Shown one piece after another: positions 2,189-14,780 of a stretch of 64,000 bases of DNA. The notes under the pieces are model-generated. The model made no database searches. It had not been told where the DNA came from and saw only the letters and a program-made list of their open reading frames with translations. The DNA is from Acidobacteriota bacterium. GTDB lineage: Bacteria > Acidobacteriota > Terriglobia > Terriglobales > SCQP01. The number at the start of each line of letters is the position of its first letter. Position 1 is the first letter of the stretch. The translations under genes and the position numbers were made by a program. Location of the stretch: NCBI GenBank assembly GCA_004299485.1, contig SCQP01000014.1:124001-188000 (forward strand). Direction: 5' to 3'.

Positions 2189-3130
2189 CTACTCTCCAGC
2201 ATGTTTGGCGGCGTGAGCGTCAAGGGCGGCGCGGACCCAGGCGCCTTCCTCGTGCGCGCGGCGACGGGTTTCGAGGCGGTCGCGGTTGCAGGGGCCGTGG
2301 CCGCGAATGACCTGGTTGAACTCCTCCCAGGGAATGGGACCGATGTCGTAATGGCCGCGCTCTTCGTTCCACTTGAGCTGTTCATCGGGAACGCGCAGGC
2401 CAAGGTAATCGGCCTGGGGCACGGTCTGGTCGATGAACTTCTGGCGCAGGCCGTCGTTGGAGATGAGCTTGATCTTCCAGGCCATCGACTGCGCCGAGTG
2501 CGCCGAGGCGACGTCGGGCGGGCCGAACATCATCAGTGAAGGCCACCACCAGCGGTTGAGGGCGTCCTGCGCCATGGCTTTTTGCTCGGCGGTTCCCTGA
2601 GACAGCTTCACCAAAATGTCGAAGCCCTGGCGCTGGTGAAAACTCTCCTCTTTGCAGATGCGGATCATGGCCCGCGAATAGGGGCCGTAGGAGCAGCGGC
2701 AGAGCGGGATTTGATTCATGATCGCGGCCCCGTCGACGAGCCAGCCGACAGCGCCGATGTCGGCCCAGGTGAGCGTGGGGTAGTTGAAGATGCTGGAATA
2801 CTTGGCTTTGCCGGTGAGCAGGTCGTCAATGAGTTGGGCGCGTCCGACGCCCAGGGTCTCGGCGGCGCAGTACAGATAGAGGCCGTGGCCGCACTCGTCC
2901 TGCACTTTGGCCAGGAGGATGGCTTTGCGCTGGAGCGTGGGGGCACGGTTGATCCAGTTGCCCTCGGGGAGCTGGCCGACGATTTCGGAGTGGGCGTGCT
3001 GCGAGATTTGGCGGATGAGGGTCTTGCGATAGGCATCGGGCATGGGATCGCGCGGTTCGACCTTGATGCCCTCGTCGAGGCGGGCCTGGAAGGCAGCATC
3101 GGCCAGGCTGGATTGTGTCACGCTCGCCAC
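2189..3130 (-). CDS. paaA: Phenylacetyl-CoA epoxidase catalytic subunit PaaA
   Basis: The 313-residue protein is the di-iron oxygenase subunit that makes the ring-1,2-epoxide of phenylacetyl-CoA. Two E-x-x-H iron-ligand motifs are visible: DECGH at residues 78-82 and EESFH at 161-165. It is the first gene of the paaABCDE operon. The start is a GTG at 3130; a second GTG three codons in is an alternative. A copy of the 111-bp repeat begins about 20 bases upstream, so the operon's leader or promoter probably lies in or beyond that repeat. No paaK, paaG or paaZ gene is in the window. Confidence 0.95.
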
Positions 3131-3148
3131 AGCTCTATTTTACGATGG

Positions 3149-3258
3149 GTGGCTCGCCACTTTTTGCCCTGGTCGCTCCCGTTGGTCGCTTGGAGGGCAG
3201 GCTCCGATTCCCGGCAGGGTTCGCCCGCTGGCGCTCAGGGATCCTCCAAGCCGCCGCA
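3149..3258 (+). repeat. 111-bp dispersed repeat, copy 1 (slightly divergent)
   Basis: The copy begins with a terminal hairpin (GTGGCTCGCCAC) and carries the shared GTCGCTCCCGTTGGTCGC core and the GCTTGGAG ... CTCCAAG arms. It lies just upstream of paaA, in the gap before folE. Its 3' end differs slightly (CCGCCGC). Plus orientation, like all other copies. Confidence 0.9.
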
Positions 3259-3603
3259 AGCCGTGCGGCGCGGTGTTCCATTGGTTGTTCCATTCGCGCT
3301 CCAAAGTGTGCCACTTTGCATCGCAAAGTGGCGTGTTTGCCGGAGTTCTTGCTGGAATGGGGTGGCACATGCCGAAAAATAGATGGAACAGAGGAAGGGT
3401 CTGTCGGTCTGGCGATCGATGGGTCTGGGGGTCGGCGAGAGGGGCGGGCATAGCTTGACTGTTGGATCGGCGGTGCGCACCCACGAGGCTGCGGCACACA
3501 CGGGGGCGCGCTGGCAGAGCGGGGCCGGCGGGCTGCCCGGCGCTGATCCGCTATGAATAGTTAGACGTGAAAAGCCGAAGGAGGGTTGGCCAGTGGTGCA
3601 GAA
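3259..3603. other. Intergenic region with no supported gene
   Basis: This stretch separates the paa operon from folE. Short open frames here have no recognisable product. It holds a perfect inverted repeat (listed separately), a GGTCT/GGTCGG-rich low-complexity part around 3400-3440 resembling that at 51.9 kb, and an AT-richer piece near 3555-3575. The last is downstream of folE, not upstream, so it is more likely a folE terminator region than a promoter. Confidence 0.6.
3310..3332. repeat. Perfect 10-bp inverted repeat (hairpin)
   Basis: GCCACTTTGC, a three-base loop ATC, then GCAAAGTGGC. The arms resemble the 5' end of the 111-bp repeat (GCCACTTTTTGC) in head-to-head arrangement, about 50 bases after copy 1. 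No T-run follows, so a simple terminator is not obvious. Confidence 0.75.
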
Positions 3604-6706: not shown

Positions 6707-7259
6707 TTACGGGCTGCGGCGCCAGCCGGCGCGTTCCAGACAGTCGCGCAACATCGCGTAGGCGCGGTGCAGGAGGACGGCGAAATGACTGGGAGTGACG
6801 CCGAGGCGGCGGCTGTGTTCGGAGCGGGGGGCGGAGTCGAGTTGCTCGAGGTGGAAGGCGCCGCGCTGGCGCTCCGGCAAATTGGCGAGGCAATGGCGGA
6901 TGGCCGCGCCGGCTTCGGCGGCGGCGGTCAGGTCGGGGGCGGGTTGCGTGCCAGGATCAGTGGAAAGCGGCTCGAAACGGCGGGTGCGGCGGTAGGCGCG
7001 CATTTTGTTGCGCAAAATGCCGCACAGCCAAGTGCGGAAGCTGGCTGCGGCCTTCGAAGCGGTCGAGGCCGGAGAGAAAGGTGACGAAGGTCTCCTGGAC
7101 CAGATCGTCGGCGTCGGCTTCGGGCACACCCCAAGCGCGCGCCACGCGGTAGAGCACCGGCGCGTTCTCAGCGACCACGGACGCCAGCACTTCCGGATCG
7201 TGGCGGCGGAGGGCTACCAGATCCGGGAGGCTGGGAGTGAATGGTAGTGCGTTGGCCAA
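6707..7259 (-). pseudogene. ECF-type RNA polymerase sigma factor, frameshifted
   Basis: Two overlapping frames together make one sigma-70 family protein. The first (start at 7259) carries region 2.1-2.2 with DADDLVQETFVTFL and GLDRFEGRS. The second continues with SFRTWLCGILRNK (region 2.4) and region 4 (LPERQRGAF, a helix-turn-helix LGVTPSHFAVLLHRA). The join needs a one-base shift near 7041-7050. There is no homopolymer or slippery site, so this is a disrupted gene or a sequencing error rather than obvious programmed frameshifting. It is the last gene of the reverse-strand metal island; no anti-sigma gene follows. Confidence 0.85.
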
Positions 7260-7903: not shown

Positions 7904-8533
7904 TTACAGAGATGGGGGATTATTTCGTGGCTTGGGGCGGTGGGAGAGTTTCCGGGCTTGGGCGAGAACCTTTTCGACCGGTTCGCGCAGGCGGAAATTG
8001 CTGGCCTGATGAATCCAGCGGATGATCCCCTGTTGATCAATCAGCACCAGTGTCGGCGTGTTGACGCTGATGCCCAGGAGATTTCGGTACTCCGGAGAGC
8101 GGGTGCCATACAGTTTCATGACCTGTTGTTTCGCATCCGACAGAATGGGGAAAGGAGTGTGGAGGTGATCGTGTACCCAGCGGGCTTTGGCGATGGGATC
8201 AACGCTGATCGCCAGGATTTGGACATCAAGAGCTCTAAACTCGCCTGCGTGCTTCGCGAACTCACCGAGTTCGCCCATGCAGTAGGGTCACCAATAGCCG
8301 CGATAAAAGTCGATGAGCACACTGTGCCCGCGATAGCGGCGCAGCTTAACCAATCCACTCTCCGCTGAGGGCAAGACAAAAGCGGGCGCCTGCTGGCCGA
8401 CATGGATATGCAGGGGGGCGATTTTGTCTTGCCCTCTGGCGGAGGCAGGTCCGAAAATCGCCGTGATGGCCGCGAGGCACAGCACAACGCTGAGAGCGGT
8501 GTGGCGAGATCTTAGTTGTCGTAGCGGCTTCAC
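7904..8533 (-). CDS. Peroxiredoxin-like selenoprotein (in-frame TGA read as selenocysteine 82)
   Basis: The gene is open from the GTG at 8533 to 7904 except for one TGA at 8290-8288. Read through, it gives 209 residues with an N-terminal signal peptide or anchor (residues 12-35) and an AhpC/TSA thioredoxin-fold domain. The TGA falls in FYRGYW-U-PYC, exactly the place of the peroxidatic cysteine in GYWCPYC relatives, with the resolving-type C85 three residues on. Downstream the family match continues (ISVDP, FPILSD, TLVLIDQQG). A perfect stem-loop starts 13 bases after the TGA. The GTG start overlaps the preceding reductase stop (GTGA), so the two are coupled. The likely job is thiol or selenol-based peroxide or disulfide chemistry outside the cytoplasm. 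The alternative is a nonsense-mutated pseudogene. Confidence 0.85.
8256..8274 (-). promoter_or_regulatory. Predicted bacterial SECIS element of the peroxiredoxin gene
   Basis: On the reverse strand the RNA is GCGAACUC, loop GGU, GAGUUCGC: a perfect 8-bp stem with G as the first loop base. The loop begins 21 nucleotides after the UGA. Published bacterial SECIS criteria ask for a hairpin just 3' of the UGA with the loop about 16-37 nucleotides away and a G in the first two loop positions; this fits. Confidence 0.8.
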
Positions 8534-9879
8534 AGCAGGTAGGGCAGGTTGGAGGCGTGGGTAGGATAGGTAAAGAGGGGATCGGCGAGGGCCTGGATGC
8601 GGAGGCCGGAGCGAATCGCCAAGGCGAAGAGATTGATCGTCTCTTCGGCGCCGGGGCCGAGGAGATGAGCGCCGAGGATTTTGTTGCTGTCCTCTTCAAT
8701 CAGCACTTTGAAGCCAGCGTAGTTTTCGCCGACACGACGGGAGGAGTACCAGCCGCTGGTGTCTTCGCGGTGGGTGCGGAAGCGTAGGCCTTTGGTTTTA
8801 GCTTCCTGTTCGCTCAGGCCGGCGGTGGCCAGCGGCGGCACGGTGAAGACGACCGAGGCCAAGCCGGCGTAATTGGCGGTGGTGTGGTTGCCATGGAGCA
8901 AATTGGCTGCCACGACCTGACCCTCATAGCCGGCCACGGGCGTCAGTGGCGCACCGGCGGTGGCGGCCGCATCGCCGGCGGCGTAGACGGACGGGTTGGA
9001 AATGCTCTGCAAAAACTCATTGACCGCGACGCCGTGGCGGTTCCAGGTCACGCCGCCTGCGTCCAGGTTCATATCGTCAATGTCGGCGATGCGACCGGCG
9101 CCGTGCACCGCCAGATCCGTGAGGAACGAGCGGGGCGCTGACTCCGGTCCGGCACGGACGGTGAGGTCCTGGCCGGTACGCTCCAGGGAGCGCACCGGGG
9201 TATCGAGTTCGACCCGGACACCCAGGGCGCGGGTTTTGGCGACGAGCACCTCCACGAGGTCGGGATCAAAATGCGCCAGCGGGCGGGCGTCGCGATGCAA
9301 GATCGTTACTTCGGCTCCGGCACGTACAGCAATGTGGGCGAATTCGAAGGAAACGTAACCCCCACCCACAAAAGTGATCCGGCGTGGGAGCGTGTCAAGA
9401 TCCAGGAACTGTTCGCTGGTGGTCAAGAGCTCTGCGCCAGGGATAGCGAGCGGCACGGGCTTGGCGCCAGCGGCAATCGCCACACGGCGCGGCTCGAGCT
9501 GTTCCTCACCGATACGGATTGTGGTTGGAGTGACGAACCGGGCGCGGCCGTGGTAGGCGGTGATGCCAGCCTTGCGGAAACTGTCTTCCCGGGCGGCAGG
9601 AACGGGGTCGGTGAAGGTGCGCTTGAAGCGCATAAGGGCGGGCCAGTCGATGGTGGGCGGGGCCAAGATCCCCTTGCCTTGCAGGCGCCGTCCCCAAGCC
9701 ACCGCTTCGGCAGCGCCCGCCAGAACTCTTTTGGGGTCGCAACCGCGCAAAGCGCAGGTTCCGCCGAAGGGCCGCGAGTCCACGATGGCCACTTGCCAGC
9801 CGGCCGCACGGCACTGGTGAGCGATCGTCTGGGCAGCGGATCCGCTGCCAATTACGAGGAGATCGAGTGGCCTGGTCAC
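8530..9879 (-). CDS. FAD-dependent pyridine nucleotide-disulfide oxidoreductase (mercuric/glutathione reductase-like)
   Basis: The 449-residue protein has the class-I disulfide reductase layout: FAD motif near the N-terminus (VIGSGSAAQT), redox pair GGTCALRGCDPK (C42 and C47), NAD(P)-binding FVGGGYVSFE, the second FAD motif YAAGDAAAT, and a dimerisation domain. The redox loop is TCALRGCDPK rather than the TCVNVGCIPSK of MerA, and the C-terminus (YPTHASNLPYLL) lacks a MerA-style CC pair. So it is not itself a second MerA. Sitting between merA and the selenoprotein peroxiredoxin, with coupled translation to the latter, it may be the reductase for that protein; this is inference. Confidence 0.87.
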   Translation of the reverse strand: MTRPLDLLVIGSGSAAQTIAHQCRAAGWQVAIVDSRPFGGTCALRGCDPKRVLAGAAEAVAWGRRLQGKGILAPPTIDWPALMRFKRTFTDPVPAAREDSFRKAGITAYHGRARFVTPTTIRIGEEQLEPRRVAIAAGAKPVPLAIPGAELLTTSEQFLDLDTLPRRITFVGGGYVSFEFAHIAVRAGAEVTILHRDARPLAHFDPDLVEVLVAKTRALGVRVELDTPVRSLERTGQDLTVRAGPESAPRSFLTDLAVHGAGRIADIDDMNLDAGGVTWNRHGVAVNEFLQSISNPSVYAAGDAAATAGAPLTPVAGYEGQVVAANLLHGNHTTANYAGLASVVFTVPPLATAGLSEQEAKTKGLRFRTHREDTSGWYSSRRVGENYAGFKVLIEEDSNKILGAHLLGPGAEETINLFALAIRSGLRIQALADPLFTYPTHASNLPYLL

Positions 9880-9924: not shown

Positions 9925-11454
9925 TTAAGCAGCGCAGCAGGATAGTTTTTTTACATCTCGAGTGAATGTTTGTGCGGCGAGCTTCAGGCCTTCCGCGTTG
10001 GTCAAGTACGGGTGGAACATAGAGGCGAGTTCGTCGACGGGGATATGGAAGCGGATGGCGGTCGCAGCCGCCTGGACCATTTCCCCTGCTTCTGGCGCGA
10101 GAAAGTGAGCACCCAGGAGTAGACCGTTATCGCCAGCCACGAGTTTGATCATACCCCGGGTGTCGCGCGCCGCCAGCGCGCGGGGCACATAGGACATGGG
10201 CAGCCGGGCAACCCTGATGTGGCTCGCCACTTTTTGCCCTGGTCGCTCCCGTTGGTCGCTTGGAGTGCGGGCTTCGATTCCCGGCAGGGTCCGCCCGCTG
10301 GCGCTCAGGCCTCCTCCAAGCTGCCGCCATTCGGTTGCATTTTGCTCCCGGGCCTGCGCCTCGGTTAAGCCTACGGAAGCCACGGCAGGATCGGTAAAGG
10401 TCACCCGAGGCAACGCGCTCAGGTCATAGCGCCGCTGGTTACCCTGCAGGGCGTTGGTCGCAGCCAGATTTCCGGCGTAGGCCGCCACGTACACGAACAT
10501 GGGATCGCCGATTACATCTCCGGCAGCGTAAATTCCGGCGTGGTTGGTTTCCAGATGATCGCTCACCAGGATCTCGCCCTTGGCGCCCAGGCGGATTCCA
10601 GCAGATTCCAACCCCAGGCCGGCCGTATTGGCGCGCCGACCCGTAGCGACGAGAAGCTGTTCGGCTTCCAACACTGTATTGGCGCTACCTTCGCGGAGGC
10701 GCAACTGGTATGCCCCCGGCTGCCCGGTGACCCCGGTCACCATGGCGCCCGCACGGATCGTCATGCCTTCGCCGCGTAGATAGTCCACCAACAGCTCACT
10801 GATTTCGGCGTCCTCGCCGGGAAGGATCCGCGGTGCGGCTTCTAATACGGTCACCTGACTGCCCAGGCGCGCGAACATCTGCGCCAGTTCCAGCCCGACT
10901 GCCCCGCCGCCCAGCACAATGAGGCGACGGGGAATGGTGCTGAGCGCCAGAGCCTCGGTGCTGGTCAGGTAGGGGACGTCAGCCAGCCCTGAGATGGGCG
11001 GCGCCCAGGGCCGCGCACCGGTGGCCAGGAGCACTTTGCCTGCGGGGACGGGTTCGCCTCCCACGCTGACGAGGCCATCCCGGCCCAACCGCGCGCTGCC
11101 GACCGCCAGCTTGACGGAAGGATATGCGGCCAGCACATCCCTGTATTTGCTTTGGCGCAAGGAGGCGACGAGTTCGTCTTTTTGCGCCACGATAGCCTCC
11201 AGCGCTACGGGCTCCGCGTGGGTACGGACGCCGGCAAAGGCGGCGTGGCCAGCGCGATGGGAAGCCTCAGCGGCTCGAATCATGGTCTTGGAGGGAACGC
11301 AGCCTACATTAACGCAGGTGCCACCCAAAGTTCCCCGCTCCACCATGGTGACCGAGGCTCCTAATTCCGCAGCCGCGATGGCCGCCGCGAACCCTGCTGA
11401 CCCGCCGCCGATGATGAGCAGGTCGACTGCATCCGTGTGAATGGTTTGGGGCAT
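9925..11454 (-). CDS. merA: Mercury(II) reductase MerA with an in-frame 37-residue insert
   Basis: MerA reduces Hg(II) to volatile Hg(0) with NADPH. The protein has 509 residues and no N-terminal HMA domain. The redox pair is in GGTCVNVGC (C47, C52), the C-terminal mercury-delivering pair in KKLSCCAA (C506-C507), and the conserved HPYLTNAEGLKLAAQTF precedes it. Residues 376-412 do not belong to the family: they are translated from a 111-bp repeat copy inserted in frame just before the MSYVPRALA segment, at the start of the interface domain. Whether the enzyme tolerates the insert is unknown. It follows merP by 11 bases. Confidence 0.94.
   Translation of the reverse strand: MPQTIHTDAVDLLIIGGGSAGFAAAIAAAELGASVTMVERGTLGGTCVNVGCVPSKTMIRAAEASHRAGHAAFAGVRTHAEPVALEAIVAQKDELVASLRQSKYRDVLAAYPSVKLAVGSARLGRDGLVSVGGEPVPAGKVLLATGARPWAPPISGLADVPYLTSTEALALSTIPRRLIVLGGGAVGLELAQMFARLGSQVTVLEAAPRILPGEDAEISELLVDYLRGEGMTIRAGAMVTGVTGQPGAYQLRLREGSANTVLEAEQLLVATGRRANTAGLGLESAGIRLGAKGEILVSDHLETNHAGIYAAGDVIGDPMFVYVAAYAGNLAATNALQGNQRRYDLSALPRVTFTDPAVASVGLTEAQAREQNATEWRQLGGGLSASGRTLPGIEARTPSDQRERPGQKVASHIRVARLPMSYVPRALAARDTRGMIKLVAGDNGLLLGAHFLAPEAGEMVQAAATAIRFHIPVDELASMFHPYLTNAEGLKLAAQTFTRDVKKLSCCAA
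10219..10329 (+). repeat. 111-bp dispersed repeat, copy 3, inside merA
   Basis: A near-consensus copy of exactly 111 bp, from GTGGCTCGCCAC to CTGCCGCCA, embedded antisense in merA. On the merA strand it reads as 37 sense codons (starting WRQLGGG and ending KVASH). Flanking merA sequence is continuous on both sides. Confidence 0.97.
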
Positions 11455-11465
11455 CGAGACTCCTC

Positions 11466-11768
11466 CTATTTTTGCTTGGCTTTTTCGACGTGCGAAGGGT
11501 AACCGGCTCGAGCCGTAACCTTCTCCAAGGCTGCAACATTGGTTTTGGCGTCGTTGTAGCTGACGCGAATTTCTTTGCGGCTGAAATTGACCGTGACCTG
11601 TTCAACGCCGGGGGAGCGCTGCAGTGCCGTCTTGACGGTTATCGGACAAACCGGGCAGGTCATTCCGGGAACGGAAAGTACCACGGTGCGCGTTGCTGCC
11701 CAAGCGGGGGCGGAAAGAAAAGAGAGCAACGCGAGTGAGAGAACGGAATTGAGAACGAGACGTTTCAT
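11466..11768 (-). CDS. merP: Periplasmic mercuric ion-binding protein MerP
   Basis: MerP binds Hg(II) in the periplasm and passes it to MerT. The 100-residue protein has a signal peptide (residues 1-24, ending AWA) and one HMA domain with the metal site GMTCPVCPITV. This copy keeps both cysteines, in contrast to the TGA-containing HMA gene at 13.9 kb. Gene order merT-merP-merA is the classical one. Confidence 0.95.
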   Translation of the reverse strand: MKRLVLNSVLSLALLSFLSAPAWAATRTVVLSVPGMTCPVCPITVKTALQRSPGVEQVTVNFSRKEIRVSYNDAKTNVAALEKVTARAGYPSHVEKAKQK

Positions 11769-11789: not shown

Positions 11790-12167
11790 TCAGTAAAACA
11801 CTGGCGCCAGATAGGGAAAAGCAAATGCCAGCAGCAGCAGCGCGGCCACGACGAAAAAGAGGGAGCGGTAGAGCCGGCGCACCGGCGGCCGGGCGCACAT
11901 TTTTGCGGGTGCGCACGCCGGGGAAGAGCGAAATATGACACGGTAAGCCAGAGCAAGCGCAATCGCGGCTACCGCCAGAAAGATGGGGCGATAGGGTTCG
12001 AGGTTCTGCAAGTGGCTTAGCCAAACGCCGCCCAAGCCTACGGCCACAAAAAGCAATGGTCCCAGGCAGCAGGCTGAGGCCAGAATGGCGAGTACGCCTC
12101 CCGCCGCCAGCCAGCCTTTGCCAGTTCCGCGCGGGTTGGATGCTTCCGTTGTTGGGTTCGCCGCCAT
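11790..12167 (-). CDS. merT: Mercuric ion transporter MerT
   Basis: From the ATG at 12167 the protein has 125 residues with three membrane segments. The first ends with the cysteine pair SACCLGPLL, the mercury-accepting site of MerT; a second cysteine region (SPACAPAKMCARPP) lies on the cytoplasmic loop. The frame is open upstream, but that part overlaps the mer promoter and merR, so the ATG at 12167 is preferred. It is the first gene of the reverse mer operon. Confidence 0.94.
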   Translation of the reverse strand: MAANPTTEASNPRGTGKGWLAAGGVLAILASACCLGPLLFVAVGLGGVWLSHLQNLEPYRPIFLAVAAIALALAYRVIFRSSPACAPAKMCARPPVRRLYRSLFFVVAALLLLAFAFPYLAPVFY

Positions 12168-12189
12168 CGCTTTTTCTGCCTCCACTGCT

Positions 12190-12220
12190 AGACTAGAACC
12201 GTACTTAAGTACGGAGTCAA
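12190..12220 (-). promoter_or_regulatory. mer operator/promoter (MerR-type, 19-bp spacer)
   Basis: On the reverse strand: -35 TTGACT (12220-12215), a 19-base spacer containing the perfect 16-bp palindrome CCGTACTTAAGTACGG, then -10 TAGTCT (12195-12190). The over-long spacer and GTAC...GTAC dyad match classical mer promoters, where MerR bound to Hg(II) untwists the DNA to allow open-complex formation. It drives merTPA and overlaps the divergent merR promoter region. Confidence 0.94.
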
Positions 12221-12233
12221 GGGGAATGTTTGC

Positions 12234-12674
12234 ATGCTCCTCACAGTGGATACGGCCCCGAGGATGACGGTTGGCGAACTGGCCCGGCGGGCGAGCGTCA
12301 ACGTGGAAACGATCCGCTTCTACCAGCGTCGGCGCTTGCTCGCCGTGCCCTCCCGGCCACTGGGAGGGATCCGGCGCTATGGCGCCGAGGATCTTGCACG
12401 GCTGGAGTTCATCAAACATGCGCAACGGTTAGGTTTCAGCCTGGGTGAGGTCCACGAACTGCTGCGCCTGGAGGACGGAACCCATTGCCGGGAGGCGCGC
12501 TCGCTGGGCGAAAGCAAGCTGGCGCTGGTGCGCTCGCGCCTGGCCGATCTGCGCCACATCGAGCGGGCGCTGCGCGACCTGGTGCACCGCTGTGGCGACG
12601 GCGGCGGGCGCTTGTCGTGCCCCTTGATCGCTGCCCTGCAAGACCCGGGCAAGCGCGGCCGGCGCCTCAGGTAG
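12234..12674 (+). CDS. merR: Mercury-responsive transcriptional regulator MerR
   Basis: The 146-residue protein has the N-terminal MerR winged helix (VGELARRASVNVETIRFYQRR) and the dimerisation helix. Three cysteines stand where MerR uses them to bind Hg(II): THC in the EDGTHCREA segment, RCGDGG, and LSCPL. It is divergent from merT across the mer operator. The ATG at 12234 is used; an ATG at 12264 would also fit. Its stop codon TAG shares its last base with the start of a 111-bp repeat copy. Confidence 0.93.
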   Translation: MLLTVDTAPRMTVGELARRASVNVETIRFYQRRRLLAVPSRPLGGIRRYGAEDLARLEFIKHAQRLGFSLGEVHELLRLEDGTHCREARSLGESKLALVRSRLADLRHIERALRDLVHRCGDGGGRLSCPLIAALQDPGKRGRRLR

Positions 12675-13080: not shown

Positions 13081-13893
13081 ATGCGACTGCGAGGACAGTT
13101 CATTTTGGGATGCGCGCTGGCGCTGACAGTGACGCCTGCACTGGCGAACGGCCACGGGCCGGTGTTTGGGCTGGCCACGCCGACCAATGGTAAGGGCGCC
13201 TGGACACTGGATTTCGCGCCCATGTTCCGAGCCGGACGCGCGGGCGAGGCGGCCGAGGCAGAAATGATGCGTGCCATGCTGACCTATGGGTTAACCGCGA
13301 ACTGGGAAATCTCGTTCTCAGCGCCGGCGATGCTCGGGAACACGCGCCGGCCAGCGGCGCGGCTTACCGGGATGATGGCGGCGAATGGCGAGTTTGAGGC
13401 ATTGACGGGCTGGCGCTTTCAGCGGCGGGAACCCGCTGTGGGCTTGCGGCGGGAGAGCACGGCGTATTTCGGCGTGGACGTACCGGGGCCGCAGGCATCG
13501 CAGGGCAAAGGCGTTTACGCGGCGGTGGCAACGGGACTGGCCTCGCGCACGAACTATCTATGGGCGGGGGTTGGCGACCAGTACCTGAGCGCAGGTGGCC
13601 AAAAGGCGGCGCTGAACACGGCGTTCTACAGTCTGGTGTATGGGTATCGGCCGTTTGCCGCGCGGCAACACTATCCCGGGCTGGACTGGCGGGTTTTTGC
13701 CGAGCTCACGGGTGAACACGACAGCACGGTGCGCAGCTCTGGCGATCAGGTGTTTCTGGGACCTTCGGTGTTGCTGATTCATAAAGACATCGGCTTCAGC
13801 GCGGGCGTGCAATGGCCAATCTATTCTGGCGGCGGTGCGGGGTTTCGGCCCGAGCGGCACCGGGTGGTGATTGACGTGAGCTATTTTTTTTGA
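13081..13893 (+). CDS. Outer-membrane beta-barrel protein of the metal island
   Basis: The 270-residue protein starts with a signal peptide (residues 1-22, ending PALA). The rest alternates polar and aromatic residues and ends IDVSYFF, a terminal phenylalanine typical of barrels inserted by the BAM machinery. It resembles transporter-like or 'copper resistance' barrel proteins in general form, but I cannot name a family. It lies directly between a Cys-rich peptide and the HMA selenoprotein, with only nine bases to the latter, so a role in metal passage or binding at the outer membrane is plausible. Confidence 0.72.
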   Translation: MRLRGQFILGCALALTVTPALANGHGPVFGLATPTNGKGAWTLDFAPMFRAGRAGEAAEAEMMRAMLTYGLTANWEISFSAPAMLGNTRRPAARLTGMMAANGEFEALTGWRFQRREPAVGLRRESTAYFGVDVPGPQASQGKGVYAAVATGLASRTNYLWAGVGDQYLSAGGQKAALNTAFYSLVYGYRPFAARQHYPGLDWRVFAELTGEHDSTVRSSGDQVFLGPSVLLIHKDIGFSAGVQWPIYSGGGAGFRPERHRVVIDVSYFF

Positions 13894-13902
13894 GGAGGGT
13901 CT

Positions 13903-14385
13903 ATGAAGCGAGCGGGTCTGACATTGTTGCTGCTGGTGGCCGCGTTGGGCGTGGGCGCGCGGGCGCAGTACCAGCATATTCAACAGACGATCTACGGAAT
14001 GGATTGAGGGGTCTGCGCCCACGCCGTGAGCGTGGCCGTAGGCAAGATCCCGGGCGTGACGGGAGTCAAAGTTGAGATAAATCTGGGGCTGGCGGAAATA
14101 ACGCTGGCGCGTGTCAACCGGGTTGGATTACGTCAGATTCGCAAGGCGATCCGGGCGCAGGGGTTCAATCCGCGCCAGGCGCTGCTGAGCGCCACGGGCA
14201 AGCTGCGGCAAGAAGACGGGCACTGGGTGTTTCAGGTGAGCGGCAACGCGGAGGATCTGCGGGTTACCGGGCCGGTGCCGCGCGCGTGGGCGGAGCTGGC
14301 GGGCAAGCCGGTGCTTATGCACGGCGAGGCGCCGGCGCCGGGCAGGGACGGCCCGACAGTTCATATCTTTTCGATCGGCCCGTGA
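13903..14385 (+). CDS. HMA-domain selenoprotein (MerP-like, in-frame TGA as selenocysteine 35)
   Basis: The gene has an AGGAGG site five bases before its ATG and is open for 160 codons except a TGA at 14005-14007. Residues 1-22 are a signal peptide (ending ARAQ). The HMA domain follows: QTIYGMD-U-GVCAHAVSVAVGKIPGV, where the TGA replaces the first cysteine of the metal-binding CxxC, giving UxxC. The rest of the domain (VKVEINLGLAEITL, IRKAIRAQGF) is intact in the same frame, and a conserved-looking C-terminal extension of about 60 residues follows. A long two-part stem-loop begins four bases after the TGA. The protein would be a periplasmic soft-metal binder with selenolate-thiolate ligation. 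It could instead be a nonsense mutation, but the position argues against that. Confidence 0.83.
14011..14043 (+). promoter_or_regulatory. Predicted bacterial SECIS element of the HMA gene
   Basis: Upper stem CCACGC/GCGUGG (14019-14024 with 14030-14035), loop CGUGA. Below a single C-C mismatch come seven more pairs (14011-14017 with 14037-14043, including two G-U). The loop begins 17 nucleotides after the UGA and has G as its second base. Distance and loop rule match known bacterial SECIS elements. Confidence 0.82.
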
Positions 14386-14780
14386 GGGCGCTCGATCAGG
14401 CCACAGATTTCGCGCGAGGAGCAGGTGGGCTGCGGCTGCTGCTGCCAGCGGGCAAGCGTGCGCTGCAGCTCGCGGCGGTACGCTCGCAGGTGCTCGAGTT
14501 TGTAATCGGTGCGCGCCAGCTCGCGCTGGGCCAGAGTCTGCACTTCAGAACAGACGGCCCCGCCGTGTTCGCGGGTTGCGAGCAGGTGGCGGATGTCGTT
14601 CAGGGCAAAGCCGAATTCCTGCGCCTGGCGGATGAAGCGGAGCCGCTGCAGATCACGCGCCTGGTAGAGGCGGCGGCCGCCCTGGCTGCGGCCGGGCGCA
14701 GGCAACAGCCCCGCACGCTCGTAGAAACGTATGGTGGAGATCTTCACTTCCGCCTTGGCCGCCAATTCCCCGATTTGCAT
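14361..14780 (-). CDS. MerR-family metal-responsive regulator
   Basis: The 139-residue protein has the MerR helix-turn-helix (IGELAAKAEVKISTIRFYERAGLL), RRLYQARDLQRLRFI, and a dimerisation helix. Cysteines occur in AVCSEV, PTCSS and REICGL, a three-cysteine pattern similar to soft-metal MerR proteins. It is convergent with the HMA selenoprotein gene and overlaps it by 25 bases. It may control the forward Cys-rich/barrel/HMA genes, whose promoter has a MerR-type dyad, or respond to a different metal than the true MerR at 12.2 kb. Confidence 0.88.
   Translation of the reverse strand: MQIGELAAKAEVKISTIRFYERAGLLPAPGRSQGGRRLYQARDLQRLRFIRQAQEFGFALNDIRHLLATREHGGAVCSEVQTLAQRELARTDYKLEHLRAYRRELQRTLARWQQQPQPTCSSREICGLIERPHGPIEKI

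Follow-up and report, generated by a model that had tools for sequence, protein, structure and literature searches.

A predicted family of secreted HMA-OB selenoproteins encoded next to metal-handling genes in Acidobacteriota and other bacteria

Relation to described metal-binding selenoproteins

Known selenoproteins are mostly redox enzymes, and few families suggest that bacterial selenium is spent on metal binding. Among the 119 prokaryotic selenoprotein families inventoried in 2026 are the UxxU metal-binding protein of NF041115, a protein of the MerT type and a cation ATPase with UxxC (PMC13188914). The members of NF041115 (UxxU_metal_bind) are described as metal-binding (seleno)proteins and appear in surveys as 'putative mercuric reductase' (PMC13188914, PMC9312934). 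Moreover, two selenoprotein sequences were recorded as 'Mercuric transport protein MerP' in the Global Ocean Sampling survey, in a table line given without a motif (PMC2398784).

The window, i.e. the whole stretch of 64,000 nucleotides analysed here, belongs to the soil Acidobacteria and contains a gene in which an in-frame TGA replaces the first cysteine of the metal motif GMDCxxC. The deduced protein and its homologues share with NF041115 the character of small HMA-related metal-binding proteins with Sec in the metal motif, and weak similarity to this model was found for 36 of the 37 members of the window family. However, NF041115 is a model of 74 positions with two Sec residues (UxxU), whereas the window family combines UxxC with an N-terminus resembling a signal peptide and an additional OB-like domain; the scores stayed below the NF041115 cut-off of 95 bits, with 25 bits for the window protein and 40 to 49 bits for three relatives (L106, L107 and L109). 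The MerT/CopZ fusion-like heavy metal transport selenoprotein (NF045683, cut-off 375 bits) consists of fused MerT-like and HMA-like parts, whereas separate neighbouring genes are found in the window family; it was not among the matches of the window protein, and two of the 37 members matched it at an E-value of 1e-5, far below the cut-off. The mercuric transport selenoprotein ABB16073 of PF02411 (C/SxxU) also employs Sec in heavy-metal transport but is a fused membrane protein, and the cation-transporting ATPase E1-E2 selenoprotein ABB15669 (PMC13188914) carries UxxC in a heavy-metal transporter but is a membrane ATPase and not a small secreted carrier. The MerP selenoprotein of the ocean survey is, by its name, a possible relative. 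With MerP proper (TIGR02052) the window protein shares the features of a secreted HMA protein encoded near mer genes and a similar fold (1osd, TMt 0.86), but the window family has an extra OB-like domain and Sec in place of the first Cys. Membership in TIGR02052 was rejected at 29.3 bits versus a cut-off of 92.55, and the term 'MerP-like' used in the first-pass annotation is therefore loose for an HMA-OB protein of its own; a true cysteine-containing MerP is encoded separately in the window (Table 1).

The window family did not reach any NCBIfam cut-off (best E-value about 1e-14 in the alignment, single members at 25 to 49 bits), and a UxxC HMA-OB protein is absent from the 2026 inventory of 119 families (PMC13188914). 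A search of mainly openly accessible literature yielded no description of a Sec-HMA-OB family, which by itself does not prove novelty. Since proteins with Sec that bind metals or transport mercury had been catalogued before (PMC2398784, PMC13188914, NF041115, NF045683), the earlier designation as an undescribed class was too strong; the scores well under curated cut-offs, along with the absence from the inventory, rather point to a new, apparently unlisted selenoprotein family among the known Sec-containing metal-binding proteins.

The in-frame TGA, the downstream hairpin and the selenocysteine machinery

The gene extends from the ATG at 13903 to the TGA stop codon at 14383-14385, corresponding to 161 codons with the stop and 160 residues, and shows the order signal-peptide-like start, GMD-TGA-GVC and open frame up to 14385. 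The ribosome site, the signal-peptide-like start and the single TGA at 14005-14007 that had been noted for this 161-codon gene are all present in the sequence and its translation. The Pfam HMA profile PF00403 matches residues 30-88 with 33 bits (gathering score 24.8; E-value 8e-8), and since this match spans the in-frame TGA, the frame 3' of the TGA is part of the same protein. Export of the selenoprotein to the periplasm is predicted from the sequence.

A structure model was calculated by AlphaFold2 with Cys in place of Sec (pLDDT 92.7) and contains an HMA fold followed by a five-strand domain. The solved structures nearest to the HMA part are those of CopZ, HMA7 and MerP and also include Cu-ATPase domains. 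The five-strand domain was modelled alone with a pLDDT of 84, and its Foldseek matches, none of them below an E-value of 0.001, are largely proteins that we take to be OB folds, such as YgiW (TMq 0.66). The model thus suggests an HMA-OB architecture with Sec as the first metal ligand.

Table 1. Coordinates of the predicted selenoprotein gene, its elements and neighbouring genes in the window
Feature	Position	Strand	Basis
Predicted selenoprotein gene; putatively exported 160-residue protein with HMA and OB-like parts, Sec at position 35	13903-14385	+	sequence, translation, Pfam, alignment, model
Ribosome-binding site GGAGGG	13894-13899	+	sequence
Signal-peptide-like N-terminus, about 21 residues, ending ARA	13903-13965	+	by-eye judgement
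HMA domain, residues 30-88	13990-14166	+	Pfam match; model; CopZ, HMA7 and MerP as nearest solved structures
TGA predicted to be read as selenocysteine, first metal ligand in GMD-U-GVC	14005-14007	+	translation, alignment, synonymous sites, codon control, selA association
Full hairpin including lower 7 pairs, kept only partly in relatives	14011-14043	+	folding, alignment
Upper hairpin of bacterial SECIS, conserved; 6 pairs, loop CGTGA	14019-14035	+	alignment, pairing, synonymous conservation
C-terminal OB-like domain, approximately residues 89-160	14167-14382	+	models, Foldseek
Partner gene, secreted 270-aa protein (GHGPVFGLATPTN kind)	13081-13893	+	open frame, Pfam/NCBIfam scans, locus comparison
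Further metal regulator of the MerR family; convergent with the selenoprotein gene and overlapping its end	14361-14780	-	open frame, Pfam/NCBIfam
merR-type regulator of the adjoining mer cluster	12234-12674	+	Pfam/NCBIfam
merT, domain part of open frame 11790-12425	11790-12125	-	Pfam/NCBIfam
Cysteine-type merP; 117.9 bits, above the MerP cut-off	11466-11768	-	Pfam/NCBIfam
merA, mercuric reductase, 529.8 bits, over the cut-off	9925-11454	-	NCBIfam

Bacterial SECIS elements are characterized by a hairpin right after the TGA and a small loop with a conserved G (PMC1088965), and hairpin position, small loop and conserved G are likewise found in the window family. The window hairpin consists of 7+6 pairs with a C/C mismatch and a 5-base loop that starts after 17 nucleotides from the TGA. 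This geometry is as described in the first-pass annotation, but the conserved feature comprises the upper six pairs only: several pairs of the lower 7-bp stem are broken in most relatives, and the whole lower stem was in part rejected as a conserved element. The window gene and 31 further TGA homologues align without gaps from the TGA onward, and in these 32 genes the 6-bp stem is formed by columns 15-20 and 26-31 around the loop CGUG[AC], with 99.5% of the cells in the upper six pairs being paired. The outermost pair covaries (CG 17, AU 9, UA 2, UG 2 and GU 2), with changes on both sides in 13 cells, which answers the question of covarying stems among homologues raised previously. The observed pairing and covariation scores were reached by none of 500 shuffles, figures that ignore relatedness among the genes and are thus not probabilities, and sliding of the partner strand destroyed the pairing. 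Moreover, codons 40-44 (CAC GCC GTG [AC]GC GTG) are synonymously invariant in 31 genes (100% versus an expected 23-62%), and most of the flanking codons vary at background level, so that the freezing is limited to the hairpin codons. In codons 40 and 41 the search pattern had specified positions one and two but not position three, and it had placed no constraint on codons 42-44; accordingly, the synonymous invariance was not created by the scan. Such a hairpin was absent from all six Cys homologues tested.

The homologues were collected by several searches. A search of 60 relatives provided full-length plain-Cys homologues, mostly with MDCAPCAHAI, and one homologue with TGA. When 396 genomes of the phylum were searched with a profile, further TGA forms came to light, two of them in genome G121 and one in G157, along with more distantly related HMA proteins bearing UxxU, UxxC or CxxU. 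The two Sec copies of G121 lie on opposite strands about 3 kb apart (L075, 3201-3722, minus strand, and 6707-7249, plus strand). A scan of GTDB genome contigs with the window protein alone did not confirm any relative, and a scan of these contigs for GMD-TGA-xx-CAHA detected 30 stretches, all 30 of which encode relatives, which places the TGA observation far beyond chance. The TGA homologues belong mainly to Acidobacteriota and also to Gemmatimonadota, Myxococcota and Planctomycetota; one record labelled Acidimicrobiia is a metagenome bin with an unchecked label. In this latter contig (L108, 1870-2208, plus strand) the C-terminal half departs from the family, possibly by a frameshift or wrong binning, and the hairpin has one broken pair. 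In the 32 aligned genes the TGA occupies the position of the first Cys of the HMA site and the protein is conserved on both sides, with UxxC in all 31 Sec rows of the alignment.

A codon control was applied to 399 genomes of the class by allowing any T-starting codon at the Sec position. It resulted in 18 matches, comprising eight TGA and ten TGC/TGT codons and no other codon, TAA and TAG included; the reversed pattern gave no match in these 399 genomes. Homologues with a plain stop followed by decayed sequence, which had been named beforehand as an argument against selenocysteine, thus did not appear in this control. The selA gene is present in all eight TGA genomes and in none of the nine Cys genomes, an association that is strong, yet does not represent nine independent events because the tree-placed Cys proteins form one clade. 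One genome with the Cys form (G027) contains a match to the tRNA-Sec model (58.6 bits), but lacks selA. The window genome (3.3 Mb, 98.8% complete) encodes tRNA-Sec with anticodon TCA (73.1 bits), SelB and SelA, all above curated cut-offs, and the first-pass concern that tRNA-Sec or SelB might be missing is thereby removed. Among the 29 genomes behind named TGA records, tRNA-Sec was detected in 25, and the four without it may be incomplete.

Relatives in several phyla share the TGA and the same RNA signal, which indicates a real selenoprotein family. The initial proposal of selenocysteine at the first metal ligand has gained from the machinery, the restriction to TGA or Cys codons and the covarying stem, and we regard it as almost certain that the TGA at codon 35 is decoded as selenocysteine and that the gene specifies a selenoprotein.

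In a phylogenetic tree, which includes the window sequence on a long branch, the six Cys proteins group together in a single clade (100/100), which is nested among the Sec proteins under midpoint rooting; this root serves display purposes only, and part of the Sec rows had been obtained by a pattern requiring TGA. The simplest reading is a Sec-to-Cys replacement upon loss of the Sec machinery, and lineages without this machinery use Cys at the equivalent position. Since such replacements are reported to be rare outside FdhA and SelD (PMC1794560), the direction suggested by the tree should be treated with caution.

Gene neighbourhood and proposed physiological role

The stop codon of the partner gene and the ribosome site of the selenoprotein gene overlap. 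A secreted partner of the GHGPVFGLATPTN kind is encoded directly upstream of the selenoprotein gene in 29 of the 31 loci with enough flank; scans of the partner protein revealed no Pfam or NCBIfam family, and it appears barrel-like by eye. A MerT-like membrane protein is encoded close to the pair, downstream or upstream, in 22 of 32 loci, with weak similarity to MerT (E-values of 1e-4 to 0.05); the window locus lacks a MerT-like gene of the module itself. MerR-type regulators were identified at about a dozen loci of the family, and merT and merA at L120, whereas P-type ATPase genes lie near four loci (L106, L116, L123 and L125) in place of mer genes. Genes for metal regulation and transport are thus found alongside the selenoprotein gene, as expected for a system handling soft metals (Hg/Cu). 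Additionally, a small secreted Cys-rich protein with a CCKKMAG-like motif, mostly ending in ILRI, is encoded just upstream of the partner gene at L074, L099, L103, L105, L121, L122, L124 and L128 and at the Cys loci L093 and L094; the protein from L074, the only one scanned, did not belong to any Pfam or NCBIfam family.

According to the proposed mechanism, the UGA at codon 35 is decoded by SelB and tRNA-Sec under the direction of the in-gene SECIS hairpin just downstream, as indicated by the comparative evidence, and the mature protein would combine an HMA domain carrying the GMD-U-x-x-C metal loop with the modelled OB-like domain. The selenolate-thiolate pair would most probably capture Hg(II) or a related soft metal in the periplasm and either deliver it to an inner-membrane carrier of the MerT type, from which it would reach MerA for reduction, or retain it as a sink. 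The receiving carrier would be the MerT-like protein of the module in most relatives and probably the MerT protein of the neighbouring mer cluster in the window, and the upstream secreted partner would take part in the same step, perhaps at the outer membrane. On sequence evidence, we consider it fairly probable that the protein carries or stores Hg(II) or some comparable soft metal in the periplasm by means of its selenolate-thiolate pair, with Hg(II) being favoured because of the linkage to mer and MerT-like genes; an extreme Hg(II) affinity of the predicted site is plausible. The loci with P-type ATPases, the copper chaperones among the below-cut-off HMA matches, the weak MerT similarity, the window locus without a MerT-like protein of the module and the long branch of the window sequence speak against this reading. 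More tentatively, and with confidence somewhat short of even, the family may belong to an envelope system for mercury or another soft metal that depends on selenium and is conserved in approximately four phyla. This system would be composed of a barrel-like secreted protein, the Sec-HMA-OB carrier and a membrane protein resembling MerT; Sec would act in it as ligand and not as redox catalyst, and the Cys form would occur where the Sec machinery is missing.

The same selenoprotein might alternatively serve as a periplasmic carrier or sink for Cu(I), Ag(I) or another soft metal in conjunction with P-type ATPases. The four ATPase loci are consistent with this role, as are the CopZ models among the best below-cut-off matches and the CopZ and Cu-ATPase domains among the nearest structures; it nevertheless appears less likely, as mer genes adjoin the selenoprotein gene in the window and at L120 and a MerT-like partner occurs at 22 of the 32 loci. 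The UxxC site could also belong to a periplasmic thiol-selenol oxidoreductase that does not carry metals, since known UxxC selenoproteins are mostly interpreted as redox proteins (PMC13188914) and the same window contains a candidate Sec redoxin. The fold is that of HMA and not of thioredoxin, the site lies within the HMA metal loop and the neighbouring genes encode metal regulators and transporters, all of which makes a redox function improbable. Finally, since TGA normally terminates translation and the gene contains an internal GTG start (14026), one might consider decay or truncation of the HMA gene, an error in sequencing or a separate downstream protein beginning at this GTG; these possibilities are so remote, however, that they were rejected in view of the aligned TGA in 32 genes with conserved protein on both sides, the synonymous sites frozen in the hairpin only, the lack of TAA/TAG in 399 genomes and the full selA association.

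For the predicted selenolate-thiolate carrier, the question why Sec, and not Cys, is used can be asked directly in terms of metal affinity, because the protein is small and soluble, related genomes contain natural Cys counterparts and the gene module is conserved. As such genes are normally misread as truncated, their recognition would correct how mercury and copper handling is annotated in Acidobacteriota and in other soil bacteria.

Additional selenoprotein candidates

A second selenoprotein candidate of the window (7904-8533, minus strand) is a secreted redoxin with a TGA at 8288-8290 in RGYWUPYC and a stem after the TGA; its gene overlaps the end of a gene encoding an FAD-dependent reductase (8530-9879) that is located downstream of merA. 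Another match in the window genome with one TGA (C8:221975) was discarded as an ordinary Cys CopZ-like protein ending at that TGA.

Related secreted HMA proteins with two TGA codons nine bases apart (UxxU) and subsequent stem-loops are encoded at L078, L080, L082, L086 and L088; the three that were scanned (L078, L080 and L088) reached no NCBIfam cut-off, that of NF041115 included. Tandem HMA proteins are encoded at L077 (3118-3594 and 4124-4567, plus strand), the first with TGA (AUPFCAHG) and the second with Cys (CPFCAYG), and thus constitute a natural Sec/Cys pair. A related HMA-like protein at L084 (approximately 2935-3366, minus strand) carries the TGA at the second ligand (LCGNUVFN, CxxU), followed by a weak stem of -8.4 kcal/mol.
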